Shown here in pieces: positions 1 to 40,262 of a stretch of 44,107 bases of DNA; the first letter of the stretch is position 1, and each line of letters begins with the position of its first letter. The notes beneath the pieces were generated by a model. That model saw nothing but the letters and a program-made list of their open reading frames with translations. It did not search any database and had not been told where the DNA came from. The DNA is taken from NCBI GenBank assembly GCA_017935485.1, contig JAGBHO010000049.1, forward strand, positions 1-44,107, in the 5' to 3' direction. The position numbers and the translations under genes were made by a program. Source of the DNA: Alphaproteobacteria bacterium. GTDB lineage: Bacteria > Pseudomonadota > Alphaproteobacteria > RF32 > CAG-239.

Positions 1-178
1 GAGATTGTGCTTTGAAGCATTTGTCATTCTGCGGCTTTCTTCTACTGTCATTCTCGGGCTCGACCCGAGAATCCATAAAGAAACAGGCAGGGTGCTGATT
101 GTGAGATGGATTGCCGGATCGAAGTCCGGCAATGACAATAAAAAAGAGCTCGGGGATAATAAAAGCAATGGTAAAGAA
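1..178. repeat. 3' tail of composite repeat with cloverleaf-like dyad
   Basis: The first 17 bases are identical to 18842-18858, inside the composite repeat at 18276-18951, so the window opens within another copy. From 46 to 137 there is a dyad: outer arms TGTCATT and AATGACA plus ATCCAT/ATGGAT, each side carrying its own inner hairpin (CTCGGG..CCCGAG and GCCGG..CCGGC). It could fold as a cruciform. It ends in AATAAAAAAG followed by AGCTCGGG, and a near-identical junction follows the repeat at 18951. No coding signal is seen. Confidence 0.75.
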
Positions 179-209: not shown

Positions 210-551
210 TTAACCCTCTATCTCTTCCTCCAAAGCTTCAAAGCTGCCTTCAGGGGCTTCATTGAATTCTTCCGGTTCGGCGTTATCCGGTTCATTCGGA
301 TCCGGCGCAACTAGGCGCAGCTCTATTCTTCTGTTATAATACTTCAGCATCTTTTTAAGTACGTTTAATTTCAAAACTCCGCGCCCGAGTTCGATATCGT
401 CAAGTTCCCGTTCCGTTATTTTTAATTTTTTACACACCTGCCATACGCGAAGCTGCCGTTCATGGCGTTCAAAGAACAAAGCAAACCCTAATGTCTTGTT
501 GAAATTTCTTAAATGATCTGGCGCCGTCGTATGATAATAAAATTTTCCCAT
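210..551 (-). CDS. Small helix-turn-helix-like protein, module copy A
   Basis: A 113-residue protein of unknown function. Residues of about 15-80 are helical, with a segment (WQVCKKLKITERELDDIE) that reads like the turn of an XRE-type DNA-binding domain. The last 35 residues are very acidic, rich in Glu and Pro. The start ATG has AGGAG 10 bases upstream. The gene at 19118-19378 has the same leader, terminator and overall helix pattern, but its sequence is almost unrecognisable, so the two look like diverged members of one family. It sits directly downstream of a structured RNA with a terminator. The DNA-binding role is inferred; an RNA-linked regulator or antitoxin-like protein is also possible. 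Confidence 0.6.
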   Translation of the reverse strand: MGKFYYHTTAPDHLRNFNKTLGFALFFERHERQLRVWQVCKKLKITERELDDIELGRGVLKLNVLKKMLKYYNRRIELRLVAPDPNEPDNAEPEEFNEAPEGSFEALEEEIEG

Positions 552-568
552 TTCTTTTTAGCTCCTTA

Positions 569-586
569 GTTTTGTTAAAACAAAAC
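569..586 (-). promoter_or_regulatory. Perfect dyad between leader terminator and RBS (copy A)
   Basis: GTTTTGTT and AACAAAAC are 8-base arms around a 2-base centre. The dyad overlaps the T tract of the leader terminator and precedes AGGAG (562-566). The same dyad with 7-base arms occurs at 19394-19409, before the second HTH gene. It could be an operator for the encoded HTH protein or a second small hairpin in the transcript. Confidence 0.45.
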
Positions 587-736
587 CACCTTAAAAATTA
601 AGGTGGCGGAGCTCAAAAACTGCGATAAACCAGTCACCGTTATTCGCCCGCAAAGCGGCTTATTTCCGGCACTCCGCCCGAGCGGATATTTTATCGAGAT
701 GTTTTTGAGACACCGCAGTCCGTCTCCGGACTGCGG
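577..736 (-). ncRNA. Structured leader RNA / candidate ncRNA, copy A
   Basis: About 160 nt read on the minus strand, matching 19401-19558. The order is P1 hairpin (713-736, 10 bp with a GAGA tetraloop); long-range P2 (701-709 with 612-620, continued by 691-696 with 623-628) enclosing P3 (674-677/682-685) and P4 (648-651/655-658); then a terminator hairpin P5 (586-594/598-606) with a T-rich tail. Between copies P4, P5 and the outer part of P2 change on both sides of the stem. P1 differences become G-U pairs only in minus-strand RNA, so this is the sense strand. It ends just before the RBS of the HTH gene. It could be an attenuating leader or a separate small RNA. Confidence 0.7.
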
Positions 737-741
737 ATATT

Positions 742-769
742 ATATTAAACGAATCCACCGTCAATGCAA
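742..769 (-). promoter_or_regulatory. Sigma-70-like promoter of leader RNA, copy A
   Basis: On the minus strand TTGCAT (769-764), a 16-base spacer and TAATAT (747-742); a perfect TATAAT overlaps at 744-739. The expected start falls at the 5' side of hairpin P1. Copy B has TTGCAA, 16 bases and TATGAT at the equivalent place, which supports the call. Confidence 0.55.
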
Positions 770-18275: not shown

Positions 18276-18951
18276 CCCTCCCTCTGATGCACTCTTTTTA
18301 TTTTCTCATCAGGGGATGTTTAGTCCTTCCCTCTCCTTCCATCCCCATTTTCTCTCCTCTCTCTTTCCGCACTTTCACTCCCCGTTTATTTTACGTTTCC
18401 CGTTCCGTTCCCTTTTCTCACTTCCTTATCCCGTTTTCTTTCCGCTCTCTTTCTTTTCCACTCACCCTCCCTGCTATTTTCTTTTTCCCGTCCCACTTTC
18501 TCCTTTCTCACCCCCTTGTCCCTTTTGCCGTGGCCTTTCCTTTTTTTTATTTTCGGATTTTGGTTTCTTTATAGAGTTGGTTATTCTTGTTTCTTACTTT
18601 TGCTTGATCAAAAGTAAGCAAAAATCAAGCCCAACCTCATTTTCTAAGCTTTCAGCCCAAAGTTAAGGTCGCTATGCTCCATTGCCTGGTGCTTCACTAT
18701 TATCTCTTTGGGCCAAAAGCTAAGAAATCATTCGGTAATCGGGCTAGTCTAACTCCCCCTAACCCCCTCTTAGCAAAGAGGGGGAGTAAAGGTGCTTCAT
18801 TTGGGGTTGTCGCAAAGGGCACCCCAAACTGTGTTGAACGAGAGATTGTGCTTTGAAGAAGATATACTGTCATTCTGAACGGAGTGAAGAATCCAGTTGG
18901 TTAATAATGCTATATGATTTGACTGGATCCTTCGCTTTGCTCAGGATGACA
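18276..18951. repeat. Composite multi-hairpin interspersed repeat, full copy
   Basis: About 680 bases, no gene; it fills most of the 943-base gap 18175-19117. Order: hairpin CTGATG/CATCAG (18284-18312); pyrimidine-rich tract to about 18550; hairpin I (18593-18602/18609-18618); hairpin II (18647-18662/18706-18721) with a 43-base loop; hairpin III (18751-18787, CCCCTCTT/AAGAGGGG); hairpin IV (TTTGGGGT/ACCCCAAA, about 18800-18828); and a TGTCATTC..GGATGACA dyad (18868-18951). The same order recurs at 43545-44107. Stems I and II differ in sequence between copies but stay paired. The rest of the gap (18952-19087) shows nothing I can name. Confidence 0.85.
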
Positions 18952-19087
18952 ATAAAAAAGGGCTCAGGATGACCGGTACGACCGGCGGCGCACCCGGCAG
19001 GTGAGGCGTCAGTTTATATGGTGCCACGAGACCCGCGATGCTATGGCGGGAAGTAGGACAAAGTTTCTGCCTTGAACAGAGAAAATG

Positions 19088-19117: not shown

Positions 19118-19378
19118 TTATTGCCACGAAGAGGTTTGGGCATCAGATAATTTGATATCAAACACCTTATCGAAGAAGGAGAACAAGTAGGCGTATTCAT
19201 CCATACGCAAGCCGTCCGTATTTCTTCTCAGCTTTTCTATTCTCCCCTCCAGAAAGTCTATATGATTCGAAAGTTCGGCGCTTGTCAAACCCCGCTCCGT
19301 CATTATCCGGTTTAATTCCTGATTGCAATAAGTTCGAAAGTTTTTACGCCAGTGTTTTCTATATTTTCTTGATAACAT
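19118..19378 (-). CDS. Small helix-turn-helix-like protein, module copy B
   Basis: 86 residues of unknown function. After a basic N-terminus, residues 22-60 (IMTERGLTSAELSNHIDFLE and on) read like an XRE-type helix-turn-helix, followed by an amphipathic helix with FSFFDKVFDIKL, comparable to KMLKYYNRRIELRL in the protein at 210-551. Little residue identity with that protein, yet its leader, promoter and terminator are nearly the same. AGGAG stands 7 bases before the ATG. It lacks the acidic tail of copy A. A DNA-binding or RNA-linked regulator is inferred. Confidence 0.6.
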   Translation of the reverse strand: MLSRKYRKHWRKNFRTYCNQELNRIMTERGLTSAELSNHIDFLEGRIEKLRRNTDGLRMDEYAYLFSFFDKVFDIKLSDAQTSSWQ

Positions 19379-19393
19379 TTTTTAGCTCCTCTA

Positions 19394-19409
19394 TTTTGTT
19401 AAAACAAAA
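19394..19409 (-). promoter_or_regulatory. Dyad between leader terminator and RBS (copy B)
   Basis: TTTTGTT and AACAAAA around a 2-base centre, just before the AGGAG (19386-19390) of the HTH gene. Equivalent of 569-586. Confidence 0.45.
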
Positions 19410-19558
19410 CCACCTTAGAAACTAAGGTGGCGGAGCCGAAAAACTGCGATAAATCAGTTACACTTATTCGCCGTGCAAGCACGCTTATATCATGTACTCC
19501 GCCCAAAGCGGATATTATCGAGATGTTTTCGACACCACAGCCCGTCTCCGGACTGCGG
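19401..19558 (-). ncRNA. Structured leader RNA / candidate ncRNA, copy B
   Basis: Minus-strand counterpart of 577-736. P1 at 19535-19558 keeps a GAGA tetraloop, with two pairs that are C-A on the plus strand but G-U in minus-strand RNA. P2 joins 19525-19531 with 19437-19444 (one bulge) and 19515-19520 with 19447-19452. P3 is 19499-19502/19508-19511. P4 is CGTGC/GCACG at 19472-19476/19479-19483, replacing CCGC/GCGG of copy A. P5 terminator is 19410-19418/19422-19430, with the loop-closing pair changed from A-T to G-C. It lies between rlmN and the HTH gene. Confidence 0.7.
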
Positions 19559-40160: not shown

Positions 40161-40262
40161 GGAGGAGAACGCCGGACCGGCTGCCCGCCAATCTGGTCAG
40201 GTTCGAGAGGAAGCAGCCATAACGGGATGTGACGGGGTCGGTCGTTCTCCACCAGTTTTTTT
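40161..40262 (+). ncRNA. ffs: Signal recognition particle RNA, small bacterial type
   Basis: About 95-100 nt. The conserved SRP domain is plain: GGTCAGGTTCGAGAGGAAGC followed by AGCC, with the apical tetraloop and the symmetric/asymmetric loop that bind Ffh. The ends pair as GGAGAACG with CGTTCTCC, and a run of eight T at 40255-40262 ends it. It acts with Ffh and FtsY in membrane protein targeting. It stands right before dnaX, a usual place. Confidence 0.95.

Follow-up and report, generated by a model that had tools for sequence, protein, structure and literature searches.

The antisense RNA C4 of phages P1 and P7 (RF01695, clan CL00128, with c4-a1b1, RF03163) is composed, from 5' to 3', of a1, b1, the 5' strand of an outer helix, a hairpin, b', a' and the 3' strand of the outer helix, followed by the ribosome site. 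The record of phage P1 gives the order a1, b1, c4, a2, b2, icd. Cleavage of C4 by RNase P is described in a passage of PMC5320573, which also reports 21 similar C4-related Group 1 sRNAs with a variable a' loop from one genome of Acinetobacter baumannii; according to that passage, these sRNAs match the C4 motif and their RNA-seq data are consistent with RNase P-like processing. For a second RNA, sRNA-Xcc1 (RF02221), an excerpt of PMC2996969 gives a length of 88 nt, as mapped in Xanthomonas campestris. The RNA is termed a trans-acting sRNA tied to virulence in an excerpt of PMC6557892, and its position before symE is called a 'divergent regulatory mechanism' in one of PMC12444791. Both RNAs are named, as separate entries, in a passage of PMC12189769, and no statement that sRNA-Xcc1 is a C4-type RNA was found in excerpts from the open-access literature.

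The window analysed here, a stretch of 44,107 nucleotides, carries on its minus strand two copies of one structured RNA, copy A (577–735) and copy B (19401–19557), as judged from the sequence and a covariance-model search. Our preferred reading, to which we give a probability of about 0.72, is that this RNA is a C4-type antisense leader related to sRNA-Xcc1 and is predicted to keep the translation of the following HTH gene off. A fold shared by both places had been proposed in a first-pass annotation, and the covariance model R1, built from 18 copies of the same genome, returned both with 178 bits (A) and 161 bits (B). The 23 other strong copies, the pseudoknot, the alternative hairpin, the complementarity to the Shine-Dalgarno sequence and the relation to Rfam were absent from that annotation. 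The features of both copies are as follows.

742–769, minus strand: promoter-like site of copy A (−35 TTGCAT 764–769, 16-nt spacer, −10 TAATAT 742–747), from the sequence
713–736, minus strand: P1 hairpin of copy A with GAGA loop, 100% of cells paired
701–709, minus strand: S1 5' arm (a1) of copy A, CTCAAAAAC, pairing with 612–620 (covariation)
690–696, minus strand: S2 5' arm (b1) of copy A, CGATAAA, hypervariable among copies, pairing with 623–629
682–686, minus strand: C5 strand of copy A, TCCGC, of the alternative hairpin P3alt (copy counts, permutation, predicted folds)
672–678, minus strand: G strand of copy A, GGCGGAG, 5' arm of the pseudoknot helix S3, 100% paired
636–670, minus strand: P4/P5 domain of copy A with internal loop AAATAAG / GCGAATAA (covariation of helix 5)
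623–629, minus strand: S2' (b') of copy A, TTTATCG (covariation, S2 pairing count)
612–620, minus strand: S1' (a') of copy A, GTTTTTGAG (covariation)
605–613, minus strand: C3 strand of copy A, AGCTCCGCC, with the 3' arm of S3 at 605–611 and AGCTCC, antisense to the Shine-Dalgarno sequence, at 608–613
577–606, minus strand: intrinsic terminator hairpin of copy A, CCACCTTAA/TTAAGGTGG, with T-run (sequence, covariation)
560–565, minus strand: Shine-Dalgarno sequence GGAGCT of copy A, predicted target of 608–613 (diagnostic-base count, pairing predictions)
210–551, minus strand: small Xre-like HTH gene A, 113 aa (best Pfam match below cut-off)
19401–19557, minus strand: RNA of copy B (161 bits with R1, sequence, predicted fold)
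19525–19532/19436–19444 and 19514–19520/19447–19453, minus strand: S1 and S2 of copy B
19508–19512, 19497–19503 and 19429–19435, minus strand: C5, G strand and C3 of copy B
19432–19437 and 19401–19430, minus strand: anti-Shine-Dalgarno GGCTCC and terminator of copy B
19384–19389, minus strand: Shine-Dalgarno sequence GGAGCT of copy B, predicted to be paired with GGCUCC (fold prediction)
19118–19378, minus strand: small HTH gene B, 86 aa (best Pfam match below cut-off)

From 5' to 3', the element consists of P1, the S1 arm (a1), the S2 arm (b1), the C-rich strand C5, the G strand, the P4/P5 domain, S2' (b'), S1' (a'), the second C-rich strand C3 and the terminator. In the alignment of the 18 own-genome copies, 97.0% of the cells hold standard pairs, compared to 35.6–51.6% when the partners are slid by 1–3 columns, and 21 of 41 pairs are changed on both sides. 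The covariation score was reached by 0 of 500 shuffles and the weakest measure, further pair types, by 19 of 500. The larger alignment thus contains the covarying pairs on which the first-pass annotation had staked its fold. P1 carries the expected GNRA loop (GAGA), and the G-U pairs that it has in several copies are compatible with minus-strand RNA only. The claimed long-range helix holding two hairpins is likewise evident in the sequence. P5 was correctly described as differing between copies A and B. Helix 5 of the P4/P5 domain shows two-sided changes in 4 of 4 pairs and is 94.4% paired in the 18 copies, in which the internal-loop letters ATAAG and CGAAT are invariant. The terminator hairpin placed before the gene is also present, with its two helices (6 and 7) 96.3% and 86.0% paired among the 18 copies, and a T-run closes the 3' end in 106 of 110 matches of the R set (110 unique sequences from the loci retrieved, which are part of all R1 matches). 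Folds of leader plus gene start beat chance with z values of −4.85 (A) and −5.74 (B).

Between the end of the match and the ATG lie 25 nt in copy A, one less than annotated, and 22 nt in copy B, as annotated. Both copies have the promoter-like site TTGCAW-16-TAWKAT described before, in copy B as TTGCAA and TATGAT with a 16-nt spacer. A looser form (TTGNNN-15..19-TWNNNT) directly precedes 68 of 105 copies (spacer 16 in 36 of these), compared to 5 of 70 in the control; all counts over 105 copies (P3alt, S3, S2, Shine-Dalgarno sequence, its pairing, ORF and promoter) are without the loci L013, L016, L100 and L101. An ORF of at least 30 aa with ATG and Shine-Dalgarno sequence starts no more than 130 nt downstream in 81 of 105 copies, compared to 11 of 98 in the divergent direction. 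These values and the strong covariation support the earlier view that the leader is structured, has a promoter-like site and a terminator of its own, and probably controls the HTH gene.

The pseudoknot helix S3, formed in copy A by 678–672 with 611–605, spans S1 and S2 and is 100% paired in the 18 copies. Its G strand is common to S3 (with C3) and to the hairpin P3alt (with C5). At least 5 bp of P3alt, counting G-U pairs, can form in 103 of 105 copies, and at least 6 bp of S3 in 102 of 105. In permutation tests on the 95 of 105 copies that were usable, each of the two helices matched its own copy better than the others (0 of 10000 in both cases; Watson-Crick pairs only for P3alt). P3alt is also formed in the predicted folds of both window copies. 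As judged by eye, S3 and the terminator overlap by 2–3 nt only, and a full antiterminator competing with the terminator was not seen.

One G strand with two partners, the invariant loop letters and a terminator directly before the gene would also suit a riboswitch-like attenuator, in which a ligand or protein (possibly the HTH protein itself) binds in a pocket built from the S1-S2-S3 pseudoknot and the conserved P4 internal loop, and thereby selects P3alt or S3 and leaves the gene blocked or open. We regard this explanation as unlikely, given that the downstream genes are unrelated in kind (Xre-like HTH genes, genes for BspA-type surface proteins), that the nearest Rfam relative is an sRNA and that the copy number reaches at least 60 in one genome. 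Such a number would be unusual for a riboswitch.

The preferred reading as an antisense leader draws on the a'/C3 junction AGCUCC (GGCUCC in copy B), which is antisense to the Shine-Dalgarno sequence GGAGCU of the next HTH gene. A diagnostic-base count, which like the pairing-probability control below was chosen after the longest-run result was known, showed that the HTH-type leaders without exception (63 of 63) have a base following GGAG that pairs, G-U included, with the RNA base preceding CTCC. At the next position, a pair is present in 44 of 63. These counts are not independent, since many downstream genes are paralogues. RNAs with AA-CTCC have GGAGTT (5 of 5), and those with AG- or GG-CTCC have GGAGC or GGAGT. 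At 52 other GGAG sites, taken as background, the next base is A in 30, G in 8, T in 7 and C in 7 cases. The extended match is gone in two related genomes (G032 and G070). Of 16 BspA-type leaders, 1 has a pair at the first base beyond GGAG; one more leader is without GGAG.

With an energy model without pseudoknots, pairing of the Shine-Dalgarno sequence with C3 at a probability above 0.5 is predicted for 52 of 63 HTH-type and 4 of 16 BspA-type leaders; in 11 of the 63 HTH-type leaders the site is not predicted to be hidden. HTH RNAs given the ribosome-site tail of BspA-type leaders exceed 0.5 in 12 of 63 cases. Both window copies fold unprompted with the Shine-Dalgarno sequence paired to C3. 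The energy of the duplex between a'/C3 and its own ribosome site is −11.18 in the HTH set, compared to −10.57 for others (2 of 20000 permutations, n = 61), and the same test on all 79 leaders gave 9 of 20000. The longest run of complementarity was not significant (13801 of 20000 for all 79; 2155 of 20000 for the HTH set), probably because Shine-Dalgarno and anti-Shine-Dalgarno sequences are common to the HTH copies. For the BspA set, the longest run was worse than random (19682 of 20000) and the energy test gave 8907 of 20000. At 570–585 of the window, the T-run of the terminator is able to pair with AACAAAA before the Shine-Dalgarno sequence, which would form an extra hairpin inside the helix with C3.

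The proteins encoded downstream were scanned with one representative per look-alike group of the R set (22 HTH and 19 long proteins, 16 of the latter from G032 and G070). HTH families lead among the 22 HTH relatives, which are small, Xre-like and of many sequence types; they could be repressors or antirepressor-like regulators. In type III toxin-antitoxin systems (ToxIN and the like), a pseudoknotted RNA and a terminator precede a small gene. The window locus shares this arrangement, and the first-pass annotation had considered a similar type of locus. Unlike in these systems, no tandem-repeat RNA was seen by eye and no ToxN-like RNase is encoded; the two HTH proteins of the window matched no RNase toxin family at E ≤ 1, with HTH families as best matches below cut-off. 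This part of the annotation is not supported.

Its statement that no RNA family with this layout was known to it is not supported either: C4 antisense RNA has the same layout, and a sub-threshold relative is sRNA-Xcc1. The RF02221 model scores 30.8 bits on copy A, below the gathering cut-off of 53. The same model finds 17 matches in the own genome at E ≤ 10, of which 13 have E < 0.01, all covering model positions 1–87 and recovering the consensus structure in register, repeatedly. Among 14 control genomes, weak matches below the cut-off occur in 2 at E ≤ 10 and in 0 at E ≤ 0.01, compared to 28 of 57 genomes, the own included, with a match at E ≤ 0.01. Copies A and B are hence a sub-threshold relative of sRNA-Xcc1. 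The match to an existing family was named in advance as removing the novelty; with 0 of 17 own-genome matches reaching the gathering score, the novelty is reduced, not removed.

The Rfam match in copy A starts with the G strand (672–678). sRNA-Xcc1 loci and the window RNA have the same a1/b1 5' extension outside the Rfam model, which starts at the outer helix and has 87 positions; the nearly equal length of the mapped Xcc1 RNA would fit a C4-like maturation by RNase P. The window RNA differs from sRNA-Xcc1 by the addition of P1, P3alt and the terminator. Two RNAs of the own genome (L013 and L016, G000:C46 and C45) are nearer to canonical sRNA-Xcc1 and intermediate in sequence, as judged by eye. 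L016 precedes a gene for a secreted, autotransporter-like protein, whose Shine-Dalgarno sequence GGATG matches the RNA strand ACATCC.

The element order of C4 is also found in copies A and B, based on the structure alignment of the own-genome copies and, for P1, on the phage record and sequence. RF01695 did not match 500–850 at E ≤ 10, with a P1 control score of 68.8 bits, nor the RNAs of 12 Xcc1 loci in a scan against all of Rfam (E up to 1), and the sRNA-Xcc1 model did not match the c4 region of P1. In contrast to C4, the window RNA is separated from its gene by an intrinsic terminator (none is annotated in the P1 layout), its target is complementary to the a'/C3 junction rather than to separate a' and b' sites, its G strand is common to P3alt and S3, and it is present in 25 copies in one genome. 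Compared to the 21 Group 1 sRNAs of A. baumannii, reported to match the C4 motif in the passage cited (PMC5320573), the window RNA is of the sRNA-Xcc1 type, and most of its 25 copies (a relative has at least 60) come with a gene and a terminator. One Xcc1-bearing locus (L119), in which the sRNA-Xcc1 RNA precedes an antirepressor-like gene, also shows a sub-threshold match to c4-2 RNA at 2890–2958 (34.8 bits, cut-off 41).

sRNA-Xcc1 itself was found above cut-off in 39 of 398 Pseudomonadota genomes. For comparison, 50 of the 97 listed matches (30 picked by program, 20 by hand; 47 above cut-off) were used, of which 38, 44 or 45 were kept in the individual tests after removal of near-identical RNAs or short targets. 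At these loci, b'-a' is complementary to a1-b1 upstream in most cases and to a2-b2 around the Shine-Dalgarno sequence of the next gene in many. An upstream a1b1 match of at least 13 nt was observed in 36 of 44 non-redundant loci, compared to 8.8% of mismatched pairs (0 of 20000 permutations). A downstream two-part a2-b2 match of at least 12 nt was observed in 21 of 44, compared to 1.4% (0 of 20000 permutations). A simpler longest-run test gave at least 7 nt in 15 of 38 loci versus 8.6%. While a' and b' both address the next ribosome site in many of these relatives, only a'/C3 does so in the window's branch, where no match of b' (S2') to the own gene was detectable (permutations 1566/3000, 883/3000 and 2786/3000). 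Whole-duplex energies were not used for the Xcc1 loci; they gave 0 of 20000 permutations, yet the own target was best in 1 of 45 and the measure is confounded by G+C content.

Among 43 proteins of at least 55 aa encoded after Xcc1 RNAs, Pfam domains included SymE toxin (6), Bro-N (3), Rha (3), P22_AR_N (1) and KilA-N (1), where one protein may count twice, and at least 29 of the 43 match neither SymE nor antirepressor-type domains. As with C4-regulated genes, the genes downstream of the Xcc1 relatives thus include antirepressors and SymE toxins (Pfam, PHROGs). An RCC triplet lies at most 1 nt after S3 in 0 of 25 copies of the BspA group and in 65 of the 80 others, which is weak evidence for maturation by RNase P as the triplet overlaps the terminator stem. 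isrK was discarded as a candidate: an Rfam scan of one Xcc1 leader returned sRNA-Xcc1 only, although 18 of 50 Xcc1 RNAs lie downstream of a GCGG..TTTT..G motif resembling that of the P1 leader (0 and 2 in the controls). A phage collection gave no match to 570–790, and four matches of viral contigs to GGTGTCTNAAAAACATCT, none recovered by R1 (E up to 0.1), are probably due to chance.

The genome of the Alphaproteobacteria bacterium, 1.77 Mb in size, contains 25 strong copies in the R1 search, 24 of them with at least 149 bits and one, apparently interrupted by an insertion, with 100 bits. R1 matches were obtained in 38 of 49 genomes of the same family, the own included, based on the best 60 scored candidates per genome. 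The 1.5-Mb genome G032 has at least 60 and genome G070 has 32. In the class-wide search, limited to the best 15 scored candidates per genome, 7 of 190 genomes had matches at E ≤ 1e-4; two of the seven, including the own, belong to the same genus. An element with inverted repeats GGCATAAAATATCCCCTCT...AGAGGGGATATTTTATGCC appears to have inserted into one RNA copy of the own genome (L100, G000:C6, 608–1038) and split it; the gene 3' of this copy is open. Dispersed-repeat-like sequences (e.g. GTCATCCTGAGCAAAGCGAAGGATCCAG) follow both HTH genes at 1–200 and 18400–19060 of the window, and a bacterial small SRP RNA lies at 40161–40256 (49.3 bits).

Tandem arrays of four (L090, G060:C7:26397–27306) and three copies (L086) were also observed. 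In L090, each copy has a promoter-like site, and an ORF with ATG and Shine-Dalgarno sequence follows the last copy only. Tandem copies without an intervening gene (L090, L091, L092) argue against a purely cis-acting role. In three tandem copies from genome G060, 118–120 of 120–122 positions agree outside S2 and the linker, 18–22 of 24–27 linker positions agree, and S2 agrees in 0–8 of 14; both arms of S2 therefore vary against an almost constant background. In the 18 copies, 7 of 7 S2 pairs are changed on both sides. The 105 copies feature 75 distinct S2 arms and 88 fully paired copies, with 674 of 685 pairs kept in those with arms of equal length.

Trans-acting sibling sRNAs, whose terminated RNAs act on other mRNAs via the variable b' with the neighbouring gene being incidental, could account for the own promoter-like site and terminator, the gene-free tandem copies, the many S2 arms and the divergence of S2 among the G060 copies. 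This explanation is improbable in our view. S2' is matched by its own S2 arm in nearly all pairs and is thus not free in the full-length RNA, an ORF follows far more often than on the divergent side, and its Shine-Dalgarno sequence matches the RNA.

The site after rlmN is occupied by the RNA in the own genome and in three relatives with RlmN 96–97% identical. S2 and gene type differ in two of these and the third has a degenerate RNA (76 bits); the gene is truncated in two relatives and not recognised in the third. In three more distant congeners, whose RlmN is 77% identical, no RNA match was found at this site. A selfish or decaying mobile unit, with the RNA serving mainly the element's own copy-number control, would fit this site, the 25 dispersed copies, 14 of them no more than 700 nt from a contig end on the 3' side (perhaps because of dispersed repeats near the unit), and the distinct S1 x S2 pairs of all 24 own-genome copies examined, but is very improbable, as neither terminal repeats nor a target-site duplication nor a transposase was shown as part of the unit, the S1 x S2 uniqueness does not exceed that of shuffles (4070 of 20000) and the strong covariation points to the RNA being used.

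For the C4-type antisense leader, we propose the following mechanism. The RNA would be transcribed from its own predicted promoter, and most transcripts would end at the built-in terminator, with limited read-through. In the read-through RNA, the 3' strand b'-a'-C3 would choose between two sets of partners. With the gene OFF, the G strand would be tied up in the local hairpin P3alt, leaving C3 to cover the Shine-Dalgarno sequence. In the ON state, the G strand would take C3 in the pseudoknot S3 and the Shine-Dalgarno sequence would be freed. Maturation by RNase P, as for C4, and action in trans between copies may occur in addition.

Such an RNA is not categorically new, as C4 and sRNA-Xcc1 are already known. 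New is that it is amplified, has its own terminator, is pseudoknotted and probably bistable, and links two Rfam entries that do not share a clan. The data here point to sRNA-Xcc1 as an antisense lock of the next gene with the layout of C4, whose 5' half is missing from the Rfam model, and the phage antirepressor and SymE loci thereby gain a testable regulator. In the window's branch, the antisense lock appears to have been multiplied to dozens of chromosomal copies with a hypervariable, nearly always paired stem, and to have been reused before surface-protein genes. In G032 and G070, genes for secreted proteins lie downstream of the RNA (e.g. at L107, L109, L144, L145, L147, L148, L150, L156, L158–L161), and 10 of 19 long proteins scanned match BspA-type LRR. 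A more speculative and rather unlikely extension is that the copies are self-addressed RNA locks, in which each S1 x S2 pair is a per-copy address with both arms renewed together; a phage-immunity lineage (C4, sRNA-Xcc1) would have become a cell-wide network of dozens of leaders, taken over in the genus g14 to govern BspA-type surface proteins. If this is true, the addresses could decide which BspA-type surface protein is made.
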